DNA of 38,332 nucleotides from Nitrospinota bacterium (lineage in GTDB: Bacteria; Nitrospinota_A; UBA7883). Under the pieces are notes generated by a model. The model searched no databases. It was not told the origin of the DNA and saw only the letters and a list, made by a program, of their open reading frames with translations. Position numbers and translations under genes: made by a program. The stretch's first letter is position 1. Every line of letters begins with the position of its first letter. The stretch lies in the NCBI GenBank assembly GCA_029881335.1, contig JAOUMU010000016.1, positions 1 to 38,332 on the forward strand, in the 5' to 3' direction. This document shows, one piece after another, positions 4,449 through 14,701 of the stretch.

Positions 4449-5784
4449 GCCGCTGAAAATCACAGAGCTTGCTCTGCGAGACGCGCACCAGTCTCTGTTG
4501 GCCACGCGCATGAGGCTGGAGCATATGACTCCCATCGCCCAGGCCTTGGACGATATCGGCTACTGGTCCGTGGAAATGTGGGGAGGCGCCACCTTCGACA
4601 CTTGTGTCAGGTTCCTCAACGAAGACCCGTGGGAGAGGGTGCGGACGCTGAAAAAGCTGATGCCCAAGACCAGGTTCCAGATGCTTCTGCGAGGGCAGAA
4701 CCTGGTGGGGTATCGCCACTATGCCGACGATGTGGTGGAAAAGTTCATCGACCTCTCCTGCGCAGCCGGCATAGACGTGTTCCGGGTTTTTGACGCGCTA
4801 AACGACCTGCGGAATATCAAGACCTCGGTGGACCGAATCCGCAAGAACGGCAAGCATGTGCAGGGAGCCATGTGTTACACCACCAGCCCCATGCACGACA
4901 TGGGCTTTTTCGTTGACCTGGCGGTTCGGCTGAGGGAAATGAACGTGGACTCAATATGTATAAAGGATATGGCGGGGCTTTTGTCTCCGACGCTGGTGGG
5001 CGACCTTGTAGCCGGCATCAAGGAAAAAGTGGATGTCCCCATACATCTGCACTCCCACACCACCTCAGGCTATGCCCTGATGACCATGACAAGGGCCATA
5101 GACGCCGGAGTGGACGCCGTGGATACTGCCATATCTCCGCTCTCCATGGGCTCCAGCCATAGCCCCACGGAGACCATCGTCTCCGCCCTGAAGGGAACCG
5201 ATCGGGACACCGGGCTGGAAATGAACAAGTTGTTGGAGATAGCCCGGCACTTTACAAAGGTGCGAAGGGAATACGCCAAGGTGGACACGGCATTCCTGGG
5301 AGTGGATGTGAATATCCTTGTTTCCCAGGTGCCGGGGGGGATGATATCGAACCTGGAGGCCCAACTGAAGACTCAAAACGCGCTTCATCGACTCCCGGAA
5401 GTGCTGGAGGAGCTGCCTAATTGCCGCAAGGACATGGGCTATCCGCCGCTGGTGACCCCCACCTCGCAGATTGTGGGCGCTCAGGCTGTGCTAAATGTGT
5501 TGATGGGCAGGTACAAAATCATCTCCAGGGAGACCCGTGACCTGGTGGAAGGCCGCTATGGCCGTCTACCAGGCCCGGTGGCGCCGGAACTGCTCGCCAG
5601 GGTGGAGGGGGACCGGGAGACTGTGATTACCGTGCGCCCGGCGGACCTCATCGAGCCGGAGTGGGAAAAGTTCAAGGAAGAGGCAAAGGGGAAAACATCT
5701 TCTGAAGAGGATGTGATGGTGTATGCCCTTTTCCCCCAGGTGGCGGATGATTACATGAAGAAAAGGGGAACTCCTCCCGAATAG
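4438..5784 (+). CDS. OadA/PycB-type carboxyltransferase subunit without biotinyl domain
   Basis: The 448-residue protein has the HMG-CoA lyase-like TIM barrel and the carboxylase C-terminal domain shared by oxaloacetate decarboxylase alpha, pyruvate carboxylase subunit B and transcarboxylase 5S. Visible are LRDAHQSLLATRMR at the barrel start, the carbamylated-lysine segment IKDMAG (Lys176) and metal-binding His205 and His207 in LHSHTT. It transfers a carboxyl group between pyruvate/oxaloacetate and biotin. It stops right after the conserved domain: the C-terminal biotinyl domain of OadA/PycB (about 100-150 more residues) is absent, so a separate biotin carrier protein is needed and is not in the window. 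Oxaloacetate decarboxylase, pyruvate carboxylase or methylmalonyl-CoA transcarboxylase cannot be told apart. The start is uncertain because the only good ribosome site serves the overlapping nine-codon ORF. Confidence 0.88.
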   Translation: MSAKPLKITELALRDAHQSLLATRMRLEHMTPIAQALDDIGYWSVEMWGGATFDTCVRFLNEDPWERVRTLKKLMPKTRFQMLLRGQNLVGYRHYADDVVEKFIDLSCAAGIDVFRVFDALNDLRNIKTSVDRIRKNGKHVQGAMCYTTSPMHDMGFFVDLAVRLREMNVDSICIKDMAGLLSPTLVGDLVAGIKEKVDVPIHLHSHTTSGYALMTMTRAIDAGVDAVDTAISPLSMGSSHSPTETIVSALKGTDRDTGLEMNKLLEIARHFTKVRREYAKVDTAFLGVDVNILVSQVPGGMISNLEAQLKTQNALHRLPEVLEELPNCRKDMGYPPLVTPTSQIVGAQAVLNVLMGRYKIISRETRDLVEGRYGRLPGPVAPELLARVEGDRETVITVRPADLIEPEWEKFKEEAKGKTSSEEDVMVYALFPQVADDYMKKRGTPPE

Positions 5785-6000: not shown

Positions 6001-6108
6001 ATGGCCCGGATAGACCTTATTGCAACACTCCATGCCATAGCTCCCCCCTTGGGTCGTCCCTTCTATCAGCAATGCAGCATGGCTGGGGGGGAATCCAGGC
6101 ATGAGTAG
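6001..6108 (+). CDS. Small 35-residue ORF overlapping the kinase start
   Basis: ATG at 6001 follows GGAAGGAGA (5981-5989; spacing 11 bases, rather long) and encodes 35 residues with no recognised domain. Its stop TAG lies in ATGAGTAG, so it overlaps the histidine kinase ATG (6101) by 8 bases. The kinase itself has only a G-run and no well-placed Shine-Dalgarno, so translational coupling is plausible. It could equally be a chance ORF in the leader. No homologue known to me. Confidence 0.3.
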   Translation: MARIDLIATLHAIAPPLGRPFYQQCSMAGGESRHE

Positions 6109-9100
6109 CGGAGGGCTCTCATTCCAGGACGCTCCAGTCCGCATCAAGCTCACCATCCTCTCCATGGGCGCCACAATTTTGGCCTTGGCCCTGGCCACTT
6201 TGATCTCTATGGCAAACAATACGATGATCGAGTGGAGATCCCATGAAAAAGAACTGAAGATTAAGGCCGAAGTTATCGGCGCCAACAGCCGGGCCGCGCT
6301 TTTGTTCGTGGACAAGGAGCACTTGAAAAGAAACCTCTCGGCGGTATCCATAGACAACTCAATAATGATGGCCGCCATCTTTTCCGCCGATGGCCAGGTC
6401 ATGGCCCGCTACTTGCGGACAGGGGAATCAGCTCCCGCGCCAGAACTCCGACCCTCGGGAACATATTTCGATTGGAAGAAACTGAGCCTTTATATCCCCA
6501 TAATGATGGACGGGGAGAGGGTGGGGACGGTCTATATTGAAGACGACCTGGAGGAGTTTTATTACTATGCCCGCATCTATCTGCTGGTGTCCCTGGTTGC
6601 CGCCCTTGTGGCCGTGGCGGCGGCGTATCTCTTCTGGTCCAGAGCCCAGCGCATAATCACGGATCCCATTTCGTCGCTGGCTGGCGCCATGCAAACGGTT
6701 TCCCACACCAGTGATTACACACTGAGGATGGAAAATCTGGGAAAAGACGAGATGGGCTCCTTGGTGGCCGGATTCAATGAAATGCTGGGGCAGATCCAGG
6801 AGAAGGAACAGAAACTGGAGGAACATTCCCGCAGCCTGGAGAAGGAAGTCTCGTTGCGCACCCAGGAATTGCGGGAGAAAAACGAAATGCTTCGCAGCGA
6901 ACTGACGGAAAGATTGAAAACCGAAGTGGCGCTAAACCGGGAAAGGGAGCTTTTCATCCACGGTCCGGCGGTGGCCTTCAAGCTGGCCGCCACCCAGGGA
7001 TGGCCCGTGGAGTATATCTCCCCAAACGTGGTCCAATTCGGGTACCAGTCTTCCGACATCCTCTCCAGAGGAAGGACGCTTTTGGATATGATCGCTCAAG
7101 ATGACAGGGGCCGCTTCTCCTACGACGCCTCCAAATGCCTGGCCGGGGATGGCGCTTCTTTCGAAGGGGAATACCGCTTGATAGGCGCGGATGGGCAGAC
7201 GTTCTGGCTGGATATCACAGCCGTGTTCGTGCTGGACGCAAAAAGAAAAGTGACCCACATGGACGGATACGCCCTGGACATCACAGAGCGTAAAATATAT
7301 GAGGAAAAGCTCAACGAAAGCATGGTGGAGCTAAAACGCTTCAACCGCCTCATGTCCGGTCGGGAAAAAAGGATCATGGAGCTTAAGTCGGACATCAACG
7401 AACTGGTGGCCCTTCAGGGGCAAGAACCCAGATTCAATACTACCTCTGAAATGGAGACGGAGCCTATCCAGGAGCAAGAGAACGCCATAGTATTCTGGCA
7501 GAATTCATTCCCCCAGGTGGTGGTGGACAGGGACGCGGCCATGAAGGCGGGCCTGGAAACAACTGTTGTGGAAGTGGCGTATTGCCATTCAACCTGCTCG
7601 GCGCCCATGGTCTTGGCCAGAGAAAAGGGTTTTTTCGCCCGTCGGGGATTGAACTCAACAATTGAGGCTGTCAAGGCTCCGCCATATATCCGGGAGATGC
7701 TAACCCTGGGCAAGGTAAAAGCGGCAATTATGCCCATGCCGGAGATATTGGCCATGGCCGCAGGCGCCGGAAGCCAGGCCGTGGATGTGAAAATATTCCC
7801 CCTATACCGCGCCGACAACCAGGGACTGGTGTTATCCAGCAGGCATATAGGGCTCAAAGATCCCTCGGACCTCAAGGGGATGACCTTCGCTGTCCCCGGC
7901 TTCGATACAATCAACTGCCATCTGCTATTTCATTACCTGGCCGAAAACGGCATAGACCCTCTCAAGGATATAACTGTCCGTCAGATAGACCCGGCACTGA
8001 CTTCATACTATCTTCGCAAGGGTAAAGTGGATGGTGTTTTCGCATCCGAGCCTTTTCTGGGCGTCGCGTTGGACTCCGATGACGCGTTCCTCATGGTACG
8101 CTCCAGTCAAATCTGGCGAGGACATCCATGCTGCGGCCTGGCCCTCCATGGCGAATTTTACTCCGGCGCCCCAAAATCGGCGGGTGTCCTGCTGGAAGCT
8201 TTCGCCGAGGGAGTCGCCGCTATGGGAACTCTGGATATCTCGGAGATCGCTCTTCTGGCCGCCGCCCTCACCGAGCCTGGCCATATCCCTTTGGCCGACC
8301 AGAGCCCCATCGAAAAGGCTCTGACCCCAGGCATGGGCGGAGAGGGACCCAGGTTTGTCGCAGACCCAACCGGTGGAGGAGGCGTATGGCAACTGGCGCA
8401 AATGCAGCGATGGGGCCGATTGTGCCAGAATATGGATCACCAGAAACTGATTGAACAGGTCTTTATTACCGGACATCTTGCTTGGGCGGAATTTCCCCAG
8501 GCGGACAAACCTCCCATGGAAATGGAGAGCAGCGTGCCCGAGGTGATCGCCGAATTGCCATACAGCGTGTTCAATCCTGATAGCCACATCAGGCGGATGG
8601 ATTCGGACCAGGAGAGCCTTGAGCCCATTGTCACCGGGGCGAACCAGATCCTGACCCAGGCCATGGAGCAGAACGCCGACATGATCTTCAAGCCGCTGGG
8701 AAAGGGCCAGGCAGGCCGTCTGGACAGGCTCGCCTCCGGAATTGCCGCCACCCTGCGCTCCCTGGAAGATACCCTGATGGAGCAAAGGGAATTGCTGGAG
8801 AAGAGAGTGGAGGAGCGCACCGGCGAGCTTTCCAACAGCCGGAGGATCGCCCTGAACATGATGGAGGACGCCCAGGAAGCCAGGCAAAGGGCGGAGAAAA
8901 TGGCCGACGAGATCAAGGAAGCCCGCCATGTGGCGGAGATAGCGGCCCAGGACCTGAAAAACACTCTGCTGGTCTCCGAGCAGTTGCGGCAGGAAACAGA
9001 AAAAGCCAAGGATCTGGCGGAGAGAATGGCCCAGGAAGCGGCTCAGGCCAGCGAAGCCAAAAGCGATTTTATGGCCAACATGAGCCACGAACTGCGCACC

Positions 9101-10978
9101 CCTTTAAACGGTGTCATCGGGCTTACGGAAGTGTTGCTCAAGGGTGGTGTAGGCAACGACCAGCGAAAGAAACTGGAGATGATCAAGTTCTCAGGCTCGG
9201 TCCTGTTGAACCTGGTTAACGATATCCTGGACCTGGCTCGTATAGAGGCGGGCAAAATGATTCTGATTTCCACCGAATTCGATCTCCGCAAGCTTGTGGA
9301 GAAGGCTGTGTCTCAATATGCCATGGCAGCCCACGACAAGGGCCTGGAGCTGGTACTGGACATCGCCGACAACCTGCCTGCCACGGTAATAGGCGACCCG
9401 GGCAGGATTAATCAGGTGGTGACCAACCTTATAGGAAACGCCGTAAAATTCACAGCCATAGGGGAGGTAGCGATCTCCGTGGATCTGGAGGAGAGCTCGG
9501 AGGGCTTCGCCACCCTGCTTTTCGCCGTGCGCGACACCGGTATCGGAGTATCCGATGACCAGAAGGTGAAGATATTCTCCCGGTTCATCCAGGGGGACGC
9601 ATCCATCACCCGCAAATATGGCGGAGCAGGACTGGGTGTGACCATCAGCCGCCAACTGGTGGATAAGATGGGAGGACGGATATGGCTGGAAAGCAAGCCT
9701 GGTTTCGGGTCCACCTTCTTTTTCACCGTCCGCTTCCAGACGCCAGAGACACACACCGCCGAGCCTGGCCCGGACCCGCGCCTGGCCGGGAAACGGATAT
9801 TAATTGTGGACGACAATGAATCTTCGCGCAATTCCCTTTCCAGGATCGCAAGGTCCCTTGGAATGGATGTGACGGTTTGCGCGGATGGCTCCGATGCTCT
9901 TCGGGCCATGATGGCTGCGGATTCGGAGGGGCGCCCGTTTCCCATGGCTGTCTTGGATAACGAAATGCCCAGGATGACTGGCCAAAACCTGGCCCGTAAA
10001 ATCAGGATGTCAGCATTTGGATCCGCAACCAGGGTGGCGCTTATGTGCGTCCTGGGAAGGAGTCCGGAAGGCGTTTCCGAAAAAGATGGCGTGGCGGATG
10101 TGCTCCACAAGCCAATAAAGAAAGAGGATCTGTACTACTCCGTCGCAAGGCTTTTGCTTGGTGAGGACGCCATCACCGCCGGATCCGGCCCAAGCCATGA
10201 TGGTCATCGCGCCGCGCCGCTGAAAATCCTGCTGGCGGAAGACAATCCCGTGAACCAGGAGGTGGCCCTCTCCATGCTGCAGCGGTACGGCCATCTGGTG
10301 GACGTGGCAGATAATGGGAAAAGAGCGGTGGATATGTGGGCTGCCGGGCGGTATGACGTGGTGCTGATGGATGTGCAGATGCCGGTGATGGATGGCTACT
10401 CCGCCACTGCTGTTATTCGCGAAAAGGAGGTGGCCCAGGAGAGGGCCAGGACACCCATTATCGCCATGACGGCTCACGCCATGGAGGGGGACCGCCAAAA
10501 ATGTCTGGACGCGGGAATGGACGACTATTTGGCGAAGCCGGTGTCTTCCACGGCCCTTTTGACTAAGGTAACCGAATATGGCGGTGGCAGGACCGATGCT
10601 CCCCCGCAAACTCCCAGGGAATACGCCGCCACGGAAAAGGATCGGTTTTCAGTAAAGGGGGTGGTTCATTCGCTGGGTCTGAATCCGGAAAACGCCGCCA
10701 CACTGGTGCAAAAGTTCATCGATAACACCTTGAACAATATAAATAACCTGAGGGAAGCCATCGCCGCGGGGGACGTGGACAGCGCCATCAGGATGGCTCA
10801 TTCCATCAAGGGCTCCTCACTGCAGATTGGCGCGGTGGCCATGGGTAGGGCCGCGGAAAAGATCGAAGCCCTGGGCAAGGTAGGTATCCTCTCCGATGAG
10901 TCCATGGAAAAGCTGGATACCCTGGTGGAGGAATATAACCAGGTGTGCCGGGATTTGGAAGAGGGAACCGGGGATTAG
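6101..10978 (+). CDS. Hybrid histidine kinase with CHASE-like, PAS, NrtA/CmpA-like, two REC and HPt domains
   Basis: A 1625-residue membrane sensor. Order: TM1 about residues 17-38; periplasmic CHASE8-like region about 40-150; TM2 about 156-182; HAMP about 182-235; coiled coil; PAS/PAC about 282-402; a solute-binding domain of NrtA/CmpA type about 485-800 (segments LAREKGFFARRGL, SDLKGMTFAVPG, PCCGLALHGEF); coiled coils; HisKA with phospho-accepting His996 in MSHELRTPLN; HATPase_c; REC1 with Asp1286 in VLDNEMP; REC2 with Asp1424 in LMDVQMP and a standard TAHAM/KP pair; HPt with His1567 in AHSIKGSS. This is a complete His-Asp-His phosphorelay, with output through an unlinked regulator. The NrtA-type domain follows both TM segments, so it should be cytoplasmic and could sense an oxyanion such as nitrate or bicarbonate inside the cell (inference). 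REC1 lacks the usual Thr/Ser switch residue in its beta-4 segment. Confidence 0.93.
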   Translation: MSSGGLSFQDAPVRIKLTILSMGATILALALATLISMANNTMIEWRSHEKELKIKAEVIGANSRAALLFVDKEHLKRNLSAVSIDNSIMMAAIFSADGQVMARYLRTGESAPAPELRPSGTYFDWKKLSLYIPIMMDGERVGTVYIEDDLEEFYYYARIYLLVSLVAALVAVAAAYLFWSRAQRIITDPISSLAGAMQTVSHTSDYTLRMENLGKDEMGSLVAGFNEMLGQIQEKEQKLEEHSRSLEKEVSLRTQELREKNEMLRSELTERLKTEVALNRERELFIHGPAVAFKLAATQGWPVEYISPNVVQFGYQSSDILSRGRTLLDMIAQDDRGRFSYDASKCLAGDGASFEGEYRLIGADGQTFWLDITAVFVLDAKRKVTHMDGYALDITERKIYEEKLNESMVELKRFNRLMSGREKRIMELKSDINELVALQGQEPRFNTTSEMETEPIQEQENAIVFWQNSFPQVVVDRDAAMKAGLETTVVEVAYCHSTCSAPMVLAREKGFFARRGLNSTIEAVKAPPYIREMLTLGKVKAAIMPMPEILAMAAGAGSQAVDVKIFPLYRADNQGLVLSSRHIGLKDPSDLKGMTFAVPGFDTINCHLLFHYLAENGIDPLKDITVRQIDPALTSYYLRKGKVDGVFASEPFLGVALDSDDAFLMVRSSQIWRGHPCCGLALHGEFYSGAPKSAGVLLEAFAEGVAAMGTLDISEIALLAAALTEPGHIPLADQSPIEKALTPGMGGEGPRFVADPTGGGGVWQLAQMQRWGRLCQNMDHQKLIEQVFITGHLAWAEFPQADKPPMEMESSVPEVIAELPYSVFNPDSHIRRMDSDQESLEPIVTGANQILTQAMEQNADMIFKPLGKGQAGRLDRLASGIAATLRSLEDTLMEQRELLEKRVEERTGELSNSRRIALNMMEDAQEARQRAEKMADEIKEARHVAEIAAQDLKNTLLVSEQLRQETEKAKDLAERMAQEAAQASEAKSDFMANMSHELRTPLNGVIGLTEVLLKGGVGNDQRKKLEMIKFSGSVLLNLVNDILDLARIEAGKMILISTEFDLRKLVEKAVSQYAMAAHDKGLELVLDIADNLPATVIGDPGRINQVVTNLIGNAVKFTAIGEVAISVDLEESSEGFATLLFAVRDTGIGVSDDQKVKIFSRFIQGDASITRKYGGAGLGVTISRQLVDKMGGRIWLESKPGFGSTFFFTVRFQTPETHTAEPGPDPRLAGKRILIVDDNESSRNSLSRIARSLGMDVTVCADGSDALRAMMAADSEGRPFPMAVLDNEMPRMTGQNLARKIRMSAFGSATRVALMCVLGRSPEGVSEKDGVADVLHKPIKKEDLYYSVARLLLGEDAITAGSGPSHDGHRAAPLKILLAEDNPVNQEVALSMLQRYGHLVDVADNGKRAVDMWAAGRYDVVLMDVQMPVMDGYSATAVIREKEVAQERARTPIIAMTAHAMEGDRQKCLDAGMDDYLAKPVSSTALLTKVTEYGGGRTDAPPQTPREYAATEKDRFSVKGVVHSLGLNPENAATLVQKFIDNTLNNINNLREAIAAGDVDSAIRMAHSIKGSSLQIGAVAMGRAAEKIEALGKVGILSDESMEKLDTLVEEYNQVCRDLEEGTGD

Positions 10979-11012: not shown

Positions 11013-14000
11013 TCACGCTCTCTTTTCAATCAACACAAATCCCTCTCCATCCAGCCTTCCGGTCACGCCTGCGCCCAGCCAACCACCCGGTGAACCGATT
11101 ATATCGCCGACAGGGTCCAGCCGCCCCAGGGCCGCCCCGGGGCTGCAAACTTCCATCATTCCATCGGCGCGGTTCCCCTCCCGGATTCGCGCTCCAGGCA
11201 AAAGAATTCCAGCGGCGCCCTGCTTGATATACATGGGAGTCTCTCCCCAGACTATCCCCATCCACTCGTCGCCGAACAGACTCAACGGAAGCCTGCCCAG
11301 TTTGGCTTTCCACTCCACATCAGCTTCGCCAGGGGGCCCCACCGCCAGAAAACGTCGGACGTTGGCGAAATCGTAAGGATGTCCCATTCTCCCCATCCCC
11401 TCCAACAATTCCCAATCCCCGAAGACGATGGTGGCGTTGGAGTCATACACGGCGGTGGGAGCTGTGGAATGCGGCGGGAGGGAATGATGCTGGCTCGACT
11501 GCATCCCCAAAAGAAGAGGCGCCACCATCCCCAGCAAAAGCCCAGGATGGGAGGAGAGCGGCTGCGCGGAGAGGACTATGTCCACCGGGCCGAAATCCAT
11601 CACCGCCGCCAACTGATATGCGTTCGCCAACAGACCGGCGTGGCTGTGGGCCGCCCACTCTCCACCTCCATCTGAGTCTGTGGAGTAAAACGCCGCCGCC
11701 GGTGAGTCCGGGTTCGCGTCCACACCAGGGTTGAAGACAAAGCCGCGGTAAGGATTGGCTTTAAGGTCTTCGATAAAAACCGCATTCACTCCGGCTTTTT
11801 CCAGTTCCATCGCCTTCGGCGCTTGGGCGCGCGACATCACCACTGTGGTCAAGCCCGCCGCCCGCGCCGCCGCCAATGCCGTTTCCGTGTCCCAATCGCT
11901 CTTCATCACAGCCGCCGCCGCGCCCGCCGCCTGGATCCCCAGGATCACAGACACGGCATCAACGGAATTCGGGAGCATGACCCCCAGGAACCTTGCTTCT
12001 TTTGCATTCTCCACCAGCGAGGCTCCCAACCTGGCGTAATGGTCTATCAATTGACCATAAGTCATTACCAGATCGTGATGGCCATGCTCCGACATGACCG
12101 CGTGTCCCGCGCCGAAAATGGCTGCCGCGTCCAGAACGGCCGCCGGTATGGTCCTGCGGGTATCCGCGCCATCGAACATCATCTCCCTCATTATTCCGGT
12201 CAGGGCGCCTCTTGCGGCGTCCCTTCGCATGCGTCCCTCCAGCCCCGGGGCCGTGTCAAGAGCCCTGGGCGGCAGGACGGTGACCGTGATCCTGTTAAAG
12301 AACCTGGGCTTGACCTTCGCCGTCATGCGGGAAAAATGGGTCAGATGAGCCCCCTCTATTCGTACAGGGAGGATGGAAGCGCCAGATTTCTGGGCGATGA
12401 GGGCAGGCCCCATATGGGTTTTCATCAATGCGCCGGTGATGGTGATCCTCCCTTCAGGGAAAATAATAATTCTGCCCCCCGCGCGGAGGATCTTCACCAG
12501 CTTCTTTATCGCCATGGGATTCTCCGCGTCGAGGGTGTGGGTGTCCACCAGGGAGAGAAACAGCCTGGCCCACCAGCGGCCCGCCATGAACCTGTTCACC
12601 ACAAAGGAGTATCGCCCCGGAAAGAACACCCCCATCAACACACCGTCCAGGAAGGACTGGTGATTGGCAACGACCATCACATTCCCTCCCGCAGCGGCCA
12701 CATGCTCCACTCCCCGGATGCGGATCTGGTACATGGCCCTGAGGATAATTTTCAAAAGAAGTCGCAACACCGGCCTGTCTCCACTCTCCAGGGCCAGGGA
12801 TCTGATGACGAAATAGGCGCCCCCGTTGAGCAGGCAGACCACCAGGAAGACAACCACCGGCCCTAGCCCGGCGCCGATCATGGCTGCGGCGCCTCCAGCG
12901 GAGACCACCATGAAGAGGGCGTTCATTATATTGTTGGCGGCGATAACCCTGGCCCTTTCCTCCTCTCTGCATCGGGTCTGCATGACGGCGTATAGCGGCA
13001 CGATGAAAAGACCGCCGCAGGCGGCGATGAGGAAAAGATCCAGCGATATTCGCCATCCCACAAGGTGGGAGAGTAATTGCGCCACGGTCGTTGGCGCCAC
13101 GGGCGCTGGCGCCCCCTCCAGCGGCATGGGCAATCCCAGGCTGGCCAGGCAGAGGTCCAGACCGAACAAGGTCATCCCGAAGGCGCCTAGGGGAACGTAT
13201 CGGGTGTCGATCTCCCCTTTCAAAAGCTTGTTGCACAGCAGGGAGCCGAGCCCGGTCCCCACGGAGAACATGGTCAGAAACCAGGTCACCACGCCCTCTG
13301 TCCCTTCCACAGTCACCCTCACGTATACCGGCAGGGTGGAGAGAAACACCGCCCCGATCAGCCAGAACCAAGAAATGCCAAGTATGGAAAGGAACACCGG
13401 CCGGGACGAACGGGAGATGCTGATAATTTTCCAAGATTGGGCCAGGATATTCCACCCCACTCTCAGGTCCGCCGCAGGGGCCGGAGCCTTTGGGATAAAC
13501 AAGCTGGCGCCCAGCCCCGCCGCCGCCACTATAAGCAACGCGGTGGAGACCACCGTCGCGCCCCCCTCCACGGCGATAAGCAGGCCGCCGCCAATGGTAC
13601 CCAGCAAAATGGCCACGAAAGTGGCGGCCTCTATCAGGGCATTGCCGGCTATCAGCTCCCCGCGCTCCAGGTGGTCCGGCAGGATGCTGTATTTTATAGG
13701 CCCGAAGAATGTGGACTGGGTTCCCATAAGGAAAAGTACTGCCAGCAACAGACCGGGAGTCATTGTGTAAAATCCCACGGCGGCCAGCAGCATCAGAAGG
13801 ATTTCCCACACCTTAACAAGGCGGATGATCGCTGATTTTTCGTATTTATCCGCCAATTGCCCAGCCAGGGAGGAGAAGAGGAAGAATGGTAGGATGAATA
13901 TCCCGCCGGCGGCCACCACCAATACTCCGGAAGAGACACCCCACATCTGCAAGCCAGCGTACATGATCATGATCACCAGGGCGTTCTTGAAAAGATTGTC

Positions 14001-14078
14001 GTTGAACGCGCCCAGGAACTGAGTGGTGAAAAGAGGCAGAAAACGCCTGGAAAAGAGAAGATGAACCTGGTTCTTCAA
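11013..14078 (-). CDS. LplT-PlsC-AMP-ligase fusion (Aas-like) with degenerate, truncated ligase domain
   Basis: About 1021 residues. Residues 1-400: an MFS transporter of the lysophospholipid flippase LplT type, beginning FLPLFTTQFLGAFNDN. About 450-640: a PlsC/LPLAT acyltransferase with intact HX4D (NHQSFLDG, His473) and FPEGR. About 650-1021: an AMP-binding acyl-ACP synthetase-like region. Intact fusions import lysophospholipid, re-acylate it and activate the fatty acid. Here the adenylation P-loop (family: TSGSTGxPKG) reads STDSDGGGEWA near residue 800, and the protein stops just after GRLDGEGF, so the catalytic-lysine C-terminal subdomain is missing; no remainder lies downstream because the kinase gene ends 34 bases away. 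The TTG start overlaps the rrtA stop as TTGA and has AGAGG upstream. An open frame reaches 14498, but that part is rrtA in another frame. Confidence 0.85.
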   Translation of the reverse strand: MKNQVHLLFSRRFLPLFTTQFLGAFNDNLFKNALVIMIMYAGLQMWGVSSGVLVVAAGGIFILPFFLFSSLAGQLADKYEKSAIIRLVKVWEILLMLLAAVGFYTMTPGLLLAVLFLMGTQSTFFGPIKYSILPDHLERGELIAGNALIEAATFVAILLGTIGGGLLIAVEGGATVVSTALLIVAAAGLGASLFIPKAPAPAADLRVGWNILAQSWKIISISRSSRPVFLSILGISWFWLIGAVFLSTLPVYVRVTVEGTEGVVTWFLTMFSVGTGLGSLLCNKLLKGEIDTRYVPLGAFGMTLFGLDLCLASLGLPMPLEGAPAPVAPTTVAQLLSHLVGWRISLDLFLIAACGGLFIVPLYAVMQTRCREEERARVIAANNIMNALFMVVSAGGAAAMIGAGLGPVVVFLVVCLLNGGAYFVIRSLALESGDRPVLRLLLKIILRAMYQIRIRGVEHVAAAGGNVMVVANHQSFLDGVLMGVFFPGRYSFVVNRFMAGRWWARLFLSLVDTHTLDAENPMAIKKLVKILRAGGRIIIFPEGRITITGALMKTHMGPALIAQKSGASILPVRIEGAHLTHFSRMTAKVKPRFFNRITVTVLPPRALDTAPGLEGRMRRDAARGALTGIMREMMFDGADTRRTIPAAVLDAAAIFGAGHAVMSEHGHHDLVMTYGQLIDHYARLGASLVENAKEARFLGVMLPNSVDAVSVILGIQAAGAAAAVMKSDWDTETALAAARAAGLTTVVMSRAQAPKAMELEKAGVNAVFIEDLKANPYRGFVFNPGVDANPDSPAAAFYSTDSDGGGEWAAHSHAGLLANAYQLAAVMDFGPVDIVLSAQPLSSHPGLLLGMVAPLLLGMQSSQHHSLPPHSTAPTAVYDSNATIVFGDWELLEGMGRMGHPYDFANVRRFLAVGPPGEADVEWKAKLGRLPLSLFGDEWMGIVWGETPMYIKQGAAGILLPGARIREGNRADGMMEVCSPGAALGRLDPVGDIIGSPGGWLGAGVTGRLDGEGFVLIEKRA

Positions 14079-14701
14079 ATCGCCTCTGCTCCCGATGCGG
14101 CGGGATACTCCCGCGCTGGATGGCGCCTCGGCAATGAAAATGCGCAGACCATAACAGCCGCCGCGAACCCGAATGCGTGGGCTTCCGGAACGCTGGGCCA
14201 TGAGGCGGAGCTGATCAAAGCGCCGCCATTGGTTATCTCCGCGGTAATTTTCACTAAATCCGCCGCCGCTATCAAAATGACAGGATAATACCCCGTTTGA
14301 AGCCATATATGAAACACAATCATTACCAGCATGGCGTTTAGCAGGCCGGAGAGGCCGCAATACACCAGAGGGGCGCCTGGCCACAGGGCCAGATATATAT
14401 CCACCCCGGCTATTCCGGCGCCTACTCCCATGAGCCATGCCCTTTTGCCATACCGCTCCAGCAACCATCCTTGCAAAACAAATGGTGGCAGGTTCCACCA
14501 GAAATGGCGGATGTCACAGTGGACGAAATGGGCCGAAAAGAGTCGCAGTGGTTCTTGCGTGTACAACGTGTTATTCCAGATAAGTTCCACAGGACTTGAG
14601 CCGAAATGTATATACAATATTATGCTGGCCAGTCCGCTAAATATTGTCAGCCATGGCGCCCTTGCGACGCCATGACCGACCCACCCGCTCGGGAAAGACA
14701 C
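14075..14701 (-). CDS. rrtA: Rhombosortase (rhomboid-family intramembrane serine protease)
   Basis: A 208-residue protein with about six membrane segments, the size and shape of the rhombosortase branch of rhomboid proteases. The catalytic serine is Ser118 in YCGLSGLLNA and the partner is His175 in EAHAFGFAAA, giving the Ser-His dyad. The early HFVHCDIRHFWWNL segment matches the conserved His/Trp-Asn region of rhomboids. Rhombosortases cleave the C-terminal GlyGly-CTERM tail of exported proteins in the inner membrane, before surface attachment or type II secretion. It starts 4 bases after the stop of the VIT/vWA gene, whose product has such a tail, and its stop overlaps the start of the LplT-PlsC gene, so all three are surely one operon. 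The family assignment is stronger than the exact substrate link. Confidence 0.85.
   Translation of the reverse strand: MSFPSGWVGHGVARAPWLTIFSGLASIILYIHFGSSPVELIWNNTLYTQEPLRLFSAHFVHCDIRHFWWNLPPFVLQGWLLERYGKRAWLMGVGAGIAGVDIYLALWPGAPLVYCGLSGLLNAMLVMIVFHIWLQTGYYPVILIAAADLVKITAEITNGGALISSASWPSVPEAHAFGFAAAVMVCAFSLPRRHPAREYPAASGAEAI

Follow-up and report, generated by a model that had tools for sequence, protein, structure and literature searches.

The window (the whole stretch of DNA analysed, 38,332 nucleotides) carries on its plus strand a single open reading frame (6101..10978) whose predicted product of 1625 amino acids matches, in order, the Pfam families CHASE8, HAMP, PAS_3, NMT1_2, HisKA, HATPase_c, Response_reg (twice) and Hpt. 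A CHASE8 sensor, predicted to be periplasmic (residues 47-146, positions 6239..6538; E 5.1e-14), is flanked by two transmembrane-like segments recognised by Kyte-Doolittle hydropathy (residues 13-38, 6137..6214, and 153-182, 6557..6646), both of which precede HAMP (184-234, 6650..6802) and PAS_3 (305-390, 7013..7270). A linker (401-478, 7301..7534), with homologues in 3 of 12 relatives, all within the genus, and none among plasmid records, leads into a solute-binding (SBP) domain of the NrtA/CmpA/CynA superfamily (approximately residues 479-795, 7535..8485). There follows a linker and coiled-coil region (796-985, 8486..9055) in which no Pfam family exceeds its cut-off; its helical last part, running into HisKA (926-985), is more highly conserved than any other part of the gene, with 95% and 87% identity in the two orthologues. 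The remainder comprises HisKA (986-1051, 9056..9253) with phospho-acceptor His996 in the motif HELRTP, HATPase_c (1098-1213, 9392..9739), receiver 1 with Asp1286 (9788..10180; limits approximate, the Pfam match being in two stretches), receiver 2 with Asp1424 (1376-1490, 10226..10570) and Hpt with His1567 (1535-1611, 10703..10933). The HisKA histidine, the HATPase boxes, the receiver aspartates and the Hpt histidine are all intact, and the predicted product is a membrane-bound hybrid histidine kinase of the phosphorelay type.

No response regulator gene, ABC transporter gene or nitrogen gene was recognised among the open reading frames neighbouring the kinase gene, and no ANTAR (NasT) partner was present among the 17 neighbouring frames scanned. 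On the minus strand (11013-14498), one frame fuses MFS transporter, acyltransferase and AMP-binding domains. The N-terminal sensor region of the kinase (6101-6940) scores 175.7 bits against NF053592 (YfiR-like-associated kinase; cut-off 194) and 89.3 bits against DgcN/YfiN. A YfiR-like gene is present once in each of three genomes of the genus (in G001 adjoining what we take to be TonB-receptor and chemotaxis genes), always on a different contig from the kinase gene, and a YfiR-type protein as partner of the kinase was an unproductive lead. The PAS-to-SBP linker was likewise unproductive as a test of insertion into an older kinase, the idea that other kinases commonly carry such a linker not being confirmed.

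An earlier note on this DNA, made from its letters without database searches, had proposed an NrtA/CmpA-like SBP domain inside a hybrid histidine kinase at 7560-8500, and this is borne out at closely similar limits (approximately 7535-8485). Over residues 485-800, the span for which a domain search had been suggested, the protein matches Pfam NMT1_2 significantly (100.6 bits, E 1.6e-28, residues 485-703, cut-off 24.7), as do the two orthologous kinases (99.5 and 94.5 bits). The matched stretch is the first two thirds of the domain, which extends to approximately residue 790 (alignments with the CmpC domain reach residue 778 and those with CynA proteins 789). Among PDB sequences, the best matches of the domain alone are the regulatory domains of NrtC/CmpC (E 1.4e-19 to 1.2e-16), followed by NrtA (4.1e-13) and CmpA (4.5e-12); its best NCBIfam match is the SsuA family model (58 bits, under the cut-off of 163.5). 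An AlphaFold2 model built from six sequences (mean pLDDT 71, pTM 0.69, the last 27 residues poor; an earlier model from three sequences, with pLDDT 32.8, was useless) matches the CmpC domain crystallised with nitrate (9uai, Z 20.4), CmpA (2i48, Z 20.3) and NrtA (2g29, Z 20.1), Z values no more than 1 apart being tied, with approximately 270 residues aligned at rmsd 4.6-5.1. SsuA (Z 18.4) and TauA (17.2) match lower down, and structures of Thi5 match too. By these matches the modelled domain is a two-lobed clamshell. Profile, fold and phylogenetic grouping agree that the domain belongs to the NrtA/CmpA/CynA superfamily (NMT1_2).

The proposed order, in which the SBP domain lies between PAS and HisKA and after both transmembrane segments and HAMP, is also confirmed. 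Because it comes after these elements, the domain should share the side of the membrane occupied by PAS and HisKA, the cytoplasm, as deduced from topology, and in this position it would resemble NasS-type sensors, which are likewise cytoplasmic. Only one further hydropathy window exceeds 1.6 (residues 705-723, 19 residues, mean 1.69); acidic residues (Asp and Glu) occur in it, and it falls within the SBP fold.

A survey of kinases with the same order, as had been recommended, found it in three species of the genus (all three genomes, the G002 contig ending within receiver 1) and in no other genome searched. Among 60 genomes, full-length matches to the SBP domain occur only in the three genus genomes, with 81% and 56% identity to the window; PF13379 is present in 12 of 24 genomes of the phylum and lies in a frame of more than 410 residues only in the same three. 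A survey of 385 genomes with kinase and CynA profiles found matches in 37 of them; kinase frames could be recognised only in these three. The sole further frame of more than 700 residues among the 385 genomes (1077 aa, G099) was rejected, having a short SBP in an accidental frame and no H-box; one of the frames of 668-694 aa (L112) was read in the tree, where it grouped with NrtC domains. In the phylum of G051 (195 genomes), seven loci read among the matches listed, considered as further kinases, included no kinase; two additional phylum searches (80 and 10 genomes) gave no candidate, the one of 10 genomes carrying no weight since nothing at all matched there, a scan of viral contigs for more homologues was unproductive, and phage records held two weak matches. 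Selection on the SBP domain is purifying (window versus G002, dN 0.106 and dS 0.44; window versus G001, dN 0.354 and dS 2.24, the latter saturated), and in G001 the kinase gene comes after a pycB-like gene (named there by resemblance), as in the window. Among open-licence papers, the literature searches listed none with a title or abstract opening concerned with a histidine kinase that has a cytoplasmic domain of NMT1 type. The arrangement is new and its parts are known: the SBP superfamily and the hybrid kinase are both familiar, and it is the placement of one within the other for which no report was found.

Two other NMT1_2 loci were noted in the genome to which the window belongs. On contig C10 (L031, 4724-9611), an SBP with a lipoprotein-like leader is followed by a hybrid kinase of 1290 aa, the two frames touching at 5742 as a separate SBP and kinase pair. 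On contig C51 (L032, 3851-4825), an NMT1_2 protein of approximately 325 aa has no evident signal peptide and is perhaps also cytoplasmic.

The SBP domain was compared by tblastn with plasmid records, 536 of which gave a match, and its nearest standalone relatives are CynA-type SBPs (31.5% identity, E 5e-40). The top group (H1-H21), mostly annotated as CmpA/NrtA-family SBPs, is 27-31% identical to it, with alignments covering 98-99% of the domain and E values of 5e-34 to 2e-40, and a second group with approximately 22-26% identity (mostly E 1e-12 to 1e-18) contains NasS, adjoining ANTAR genes, and NrtA types. Ten of the 21 top-group loci were opened. A cyanase gene lies downstream of SBP, permease and ATPase genes in five of them (Loktanella, Acetobacter, Methylobacterium, Rhodobacteraceae SC52 and Bosea F3-2), which match the operon order cynFABDS of the published description (PMC6627978); in three of the five, the upstream divergent gene is annotated as encoding a sigma-54 regulator, the divergent gene of SC52 is annotated as a PAS protein, and the sigma-54 regulator of Acetobacter is downstream. 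In Bosea vaviloviae and two Bradyrhizobium loci the SBP occurs with C-N hydrolase and molybdopterin oxidoreductase genes, a Moraxella locus has neither cyanase nor this set, and a Caballeronia locus is unannotated. At L081, L085 and L086, a CynA-like SBP gene lies close to genes for a C-N hydrolase and a molybdopterin oxidoreductase (L085 also has an aldoxime dehydratase gene), and these SBPs, with a pocket set of their own, perhaps belong to a nitrile-type transporter. At L069 (336-1149, genome G089) a CynA-like gene is broken up between two reading frames and contains one stop.

The SBP domains of the three kinases score 167-180 bits with a CynA-type profile, 102-118 with a nitrate-clade profile and 111-125 with a profile of other SBPs, a rough comparison in that the profiles were self-built from groups of unequal size (10, 11 and 13 rows). 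Sequence scores place the domain closer to CynA (cyanate) SBPs than to any of NrtA, NasS and the NrtC/CmpC domains. It does not share the cynABDS operon setting, and no cyanase (PF02560) was found in the three genus genomes (drafts, 81-94% complete); with no member of this family in the three genomes, growth on cyanate is not suggested. Cyanate could nevertheless arise from carbamoyl phosphate or urea.

In phylogenetic trees, NrtA, NasS, NrtC, CmpC, CynA and the kinase rows form one group against other SBPs (24-row branch 100/100 in a first tree, 34-row branch 100/99 in a second). The best trees place the kinases with CynA, though weakly (72/78 and 56/13), and a topology uniting them with the nitrate clade was not rejected by the AU test (p 0.162 and 0.287). 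Because of this, and because the kinase stem is long, the kinase SBPs are described as a third branch of the NrtA/CynA group. Left out were L069, L013 and L073 before the first tree and, as long branches, L007, L008, L011 and L038 before the second; the long frames of L070, L071, L010 and L098 were trimmed to their last 400 residues, rows added for a 43-row alignment were trimmed to the last 430 if longer than 480 residues, and L031, L032 and L093-L097 yielded no row and were unused.

NrtA is reported to contact nitrate through Trp102, Gln155, His196, Gly240 and Lys269 (PMC13204499). These positions were placed on the kinase through the 2g29 alignment, a single offset (29) fitting all five. 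Gln155 (Gln574, 7820..7822) is the sole contact kept in the three kinases, Trp102, His196, Gly240 and Lys269 being replaced; Asn605 (7913..7915) is at the His196 position, and Cys678, the last residue of an HPCC motif (675-678, 8123..8134), is at that of Lys269. The position of NrtA Asp73, which serves as a marker only and is not a listed nitrate contact, is occupied by Cys499 (7595..7597, in TCSAP), as it is by Cys in all CynA-type rows. Loss of all pocket residues, which would have counted against the earlier note, is thus not seen; its suggestion of nitrate as the ligand is not supported, in that four of five contacts are replaced and CynA is nearer by sequence score. Nor is bicarbonate, which it had also named, supported, though here the comparison is weaker, with CmpA itself outside the pocket table: CmpA reportedly uses Glu271 (PMC13249358), and the kinases have Cys at the NrtA Lys269 column.

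In that table, taken from the 43-row alignment, the columns 73/102/155/196/240/269 read C W Q H P C in 11 of 11 cyanate-type rows (cyanase is shown beside five), C I N Q G C in the three nitrile-linked rows (L081, L085 and L086) and typically D W Q/N H G K in the nitrate clade (17 rows, with Trp in 17, Lys in 16, Gly in 15 and His in 14, and at position 73 Asp in 15 and Ala in 2). The three kinase rows read C, P/P/E, Q, N, S, C, the alignment near 102 and 196 being less sure than near HPCC. Each group has its own pocket set, that of the kinases being a fourth. The kinases share Cys73, Cys269 and Gln155 with the cyanate-type rows and have Pro/Pro/Glu, Asn and Ser in place of their invariant Trp102, His196 and Pro240. 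Cys is present at both 73 and 269 in all three kinases and all 14 CynA-type rows, and at neither in the 17 nitrate-type rows; it also occurs at 73 in one of nine outgroup rows and at 269 in seven of the nine, so the HPCC cysteine, probably ancestral, is not a pointer to cyanate only. The motif is found also in SBPs outside the CynA group, and the idea that HPCC proves cyanate binding was rejected for that reason. Gln574, Asn605, Ser649, Cys499 and Cys678 are identical in the three kinases, in which the SBP domain is only 56% identical to the furthest.

We lean towards reading the protein as a kinase that takes in two or more signals, one through a periplasmic CHASE8 domain and another through a cytoplasmic clamshell SBP domain for a small ligand, perhaps cyanate-like; the reported responses of NasS and the CmpC domain to nitrate show that cytoplasmic action is open to clamshells of this superfamily. 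A small intracellular ligand would close the clamshell, closure would on the simplest reading shift the helices that run from the SBP domain to HisKA, and the shift would tune autophosphorylation of His996, with a relay through the receivers to His1567 and then to a response regulator encoded elsewhere. Nitrate and bicarbonate are both improbable as the ligand, and our best guess is a small, linear molecule resembling cyanate (cyanate itself, cyanide, thiocyanate or a nitrile). The more specific proposal that the kinase directly reads intracellular cyanate or another such pseudohalide (cyanide, thiocyanate, nitrile) through a CynA-like clamshell shifted from the periplasm, with cysteines in its cleft, is a less probable reading, offered tentatively.

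Sensing of nitrate, nitrite or bicarbonate directly in the cytoplasm, in the manner of NasS or the CmpC domain, would accord with the NrtC/CmpC regulatory domains being the nearest solved structures by sequence, with the kept Gln155 and with the nitrate-clade grouping that the trees do not reject. NasS provides a reported case of nitrate sensing by a cytoplasmic NrtA-like protein (PMC3795266), the CmpC domain is reported to be a nitrate sensor (PMC13249358), and the CynABD transporter of S. elongatus reportedly moves nitrite too (PMC6627978). Nevertheless, we regard such sensing as very unlikely, given that the four contacts replaced in every kinase are mostly kept in nitrate-type rows and that the nitrate-clade profile scores lower than the CynA-type one. 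Binding of some other ligand of NMT1-type proteins, such as a sulfonate, a thiamine precursor or a different organic solute, is suggested by the SsuA family model as best NCBIfam match, albeit below its cut-off, by the SsuA, TauA and Thi5 structures that match the model and by HPCC motifs outside the CynA clade; it is unlikely, however, in view of the well-supported 34-row NrtA/CynA group that includes the kinases and of a CynA-type profile score approximately 55 bits above that of other SBPs.

The SBP domain might instead have no small ligand now and serve as a spacer or as a docking site, perhaps for a protein of the PII type. PII reportedly binds the regulatory domain of NrtC (PMC13249358; title of entry 8wm7), and the kinase pocket set is unlike that of every group in the table, but the five pocket residues identical in all the kinases suggest a kept pocket, and we think a ligand-free module rather unlikely. 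The three genomes are drafts in many contigs, two of them metagenome bins sharing a site label; even so, that the fusion is an artefact of assembly or gene calling, or that the SBP domain is extracellular, is extremely improbable when an identical order is found in three species differing by 19-44% in the SBP domain, in one open frame with no further convincing transmembrane segment.

Clamshell SBPs are a very large source of ligand specificities, and those known as kinase sensors lie outside the membrane. A kinase with an internal clamshell would show the same module reading cytoplasmic metabolites, a third cytoplasmic use beside NasS and NrtC/CmpC. A single purified domain could answer the ligand question, and the kinase would be a natural design for intracellular sensors.

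In EvgS and BvgS, a periplasmic clamshell sensor of a different SBP family controls a hybrid kinase and signals across the membrane; a clamshell would control a hybrid kinase here as well, but the clamshell of EvgS/BvgS is outside the cell. CynA, the SBP of the cyanate transporter CynABD (cynFABDS; PMC6627978), resembles the kinase domain in Cys at both markers, HPCC, Gln155 and 27-31% identity over 98-99% of its length, whereas it is exported and encoded in a transport operon, the kinase domain being internal, with no transporter recognised beside it and without the Trp, His and Pro of CynA. NasS of the NasS-NasT system is an NrtA-family protein that works in the cytoplasm and serves for sensing and not for transport, but it stands alone and binds an RNA-binding antiterminator, NasT, which it releases on nitrate, and it is reported to retain all nitrate residues (PMC3795266), which the kinase domain has mostly lost. 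The C-terminal regulatory domains of NrtC/CmpC (8w9m, 8wm7, 9uai, 9uak) are alike in fold, in being cytoplasmic and fused and in giving the best solved-structure match, but they regulate a transporter ATPase, from which the CmpC domain is reportedly released on nitrate (PMC13249358), and they retain the nitrate Lys where the kinase domain has Cys. NasS, which the earlier note had not mentioned, and the NrtC/CmpC domains are precedents for a cytoplasmic SBP-type domain, and the precedent that the earlier note had drawn from NrtC is upheld by these regulatory domains being the closest by sequence among solved structures.
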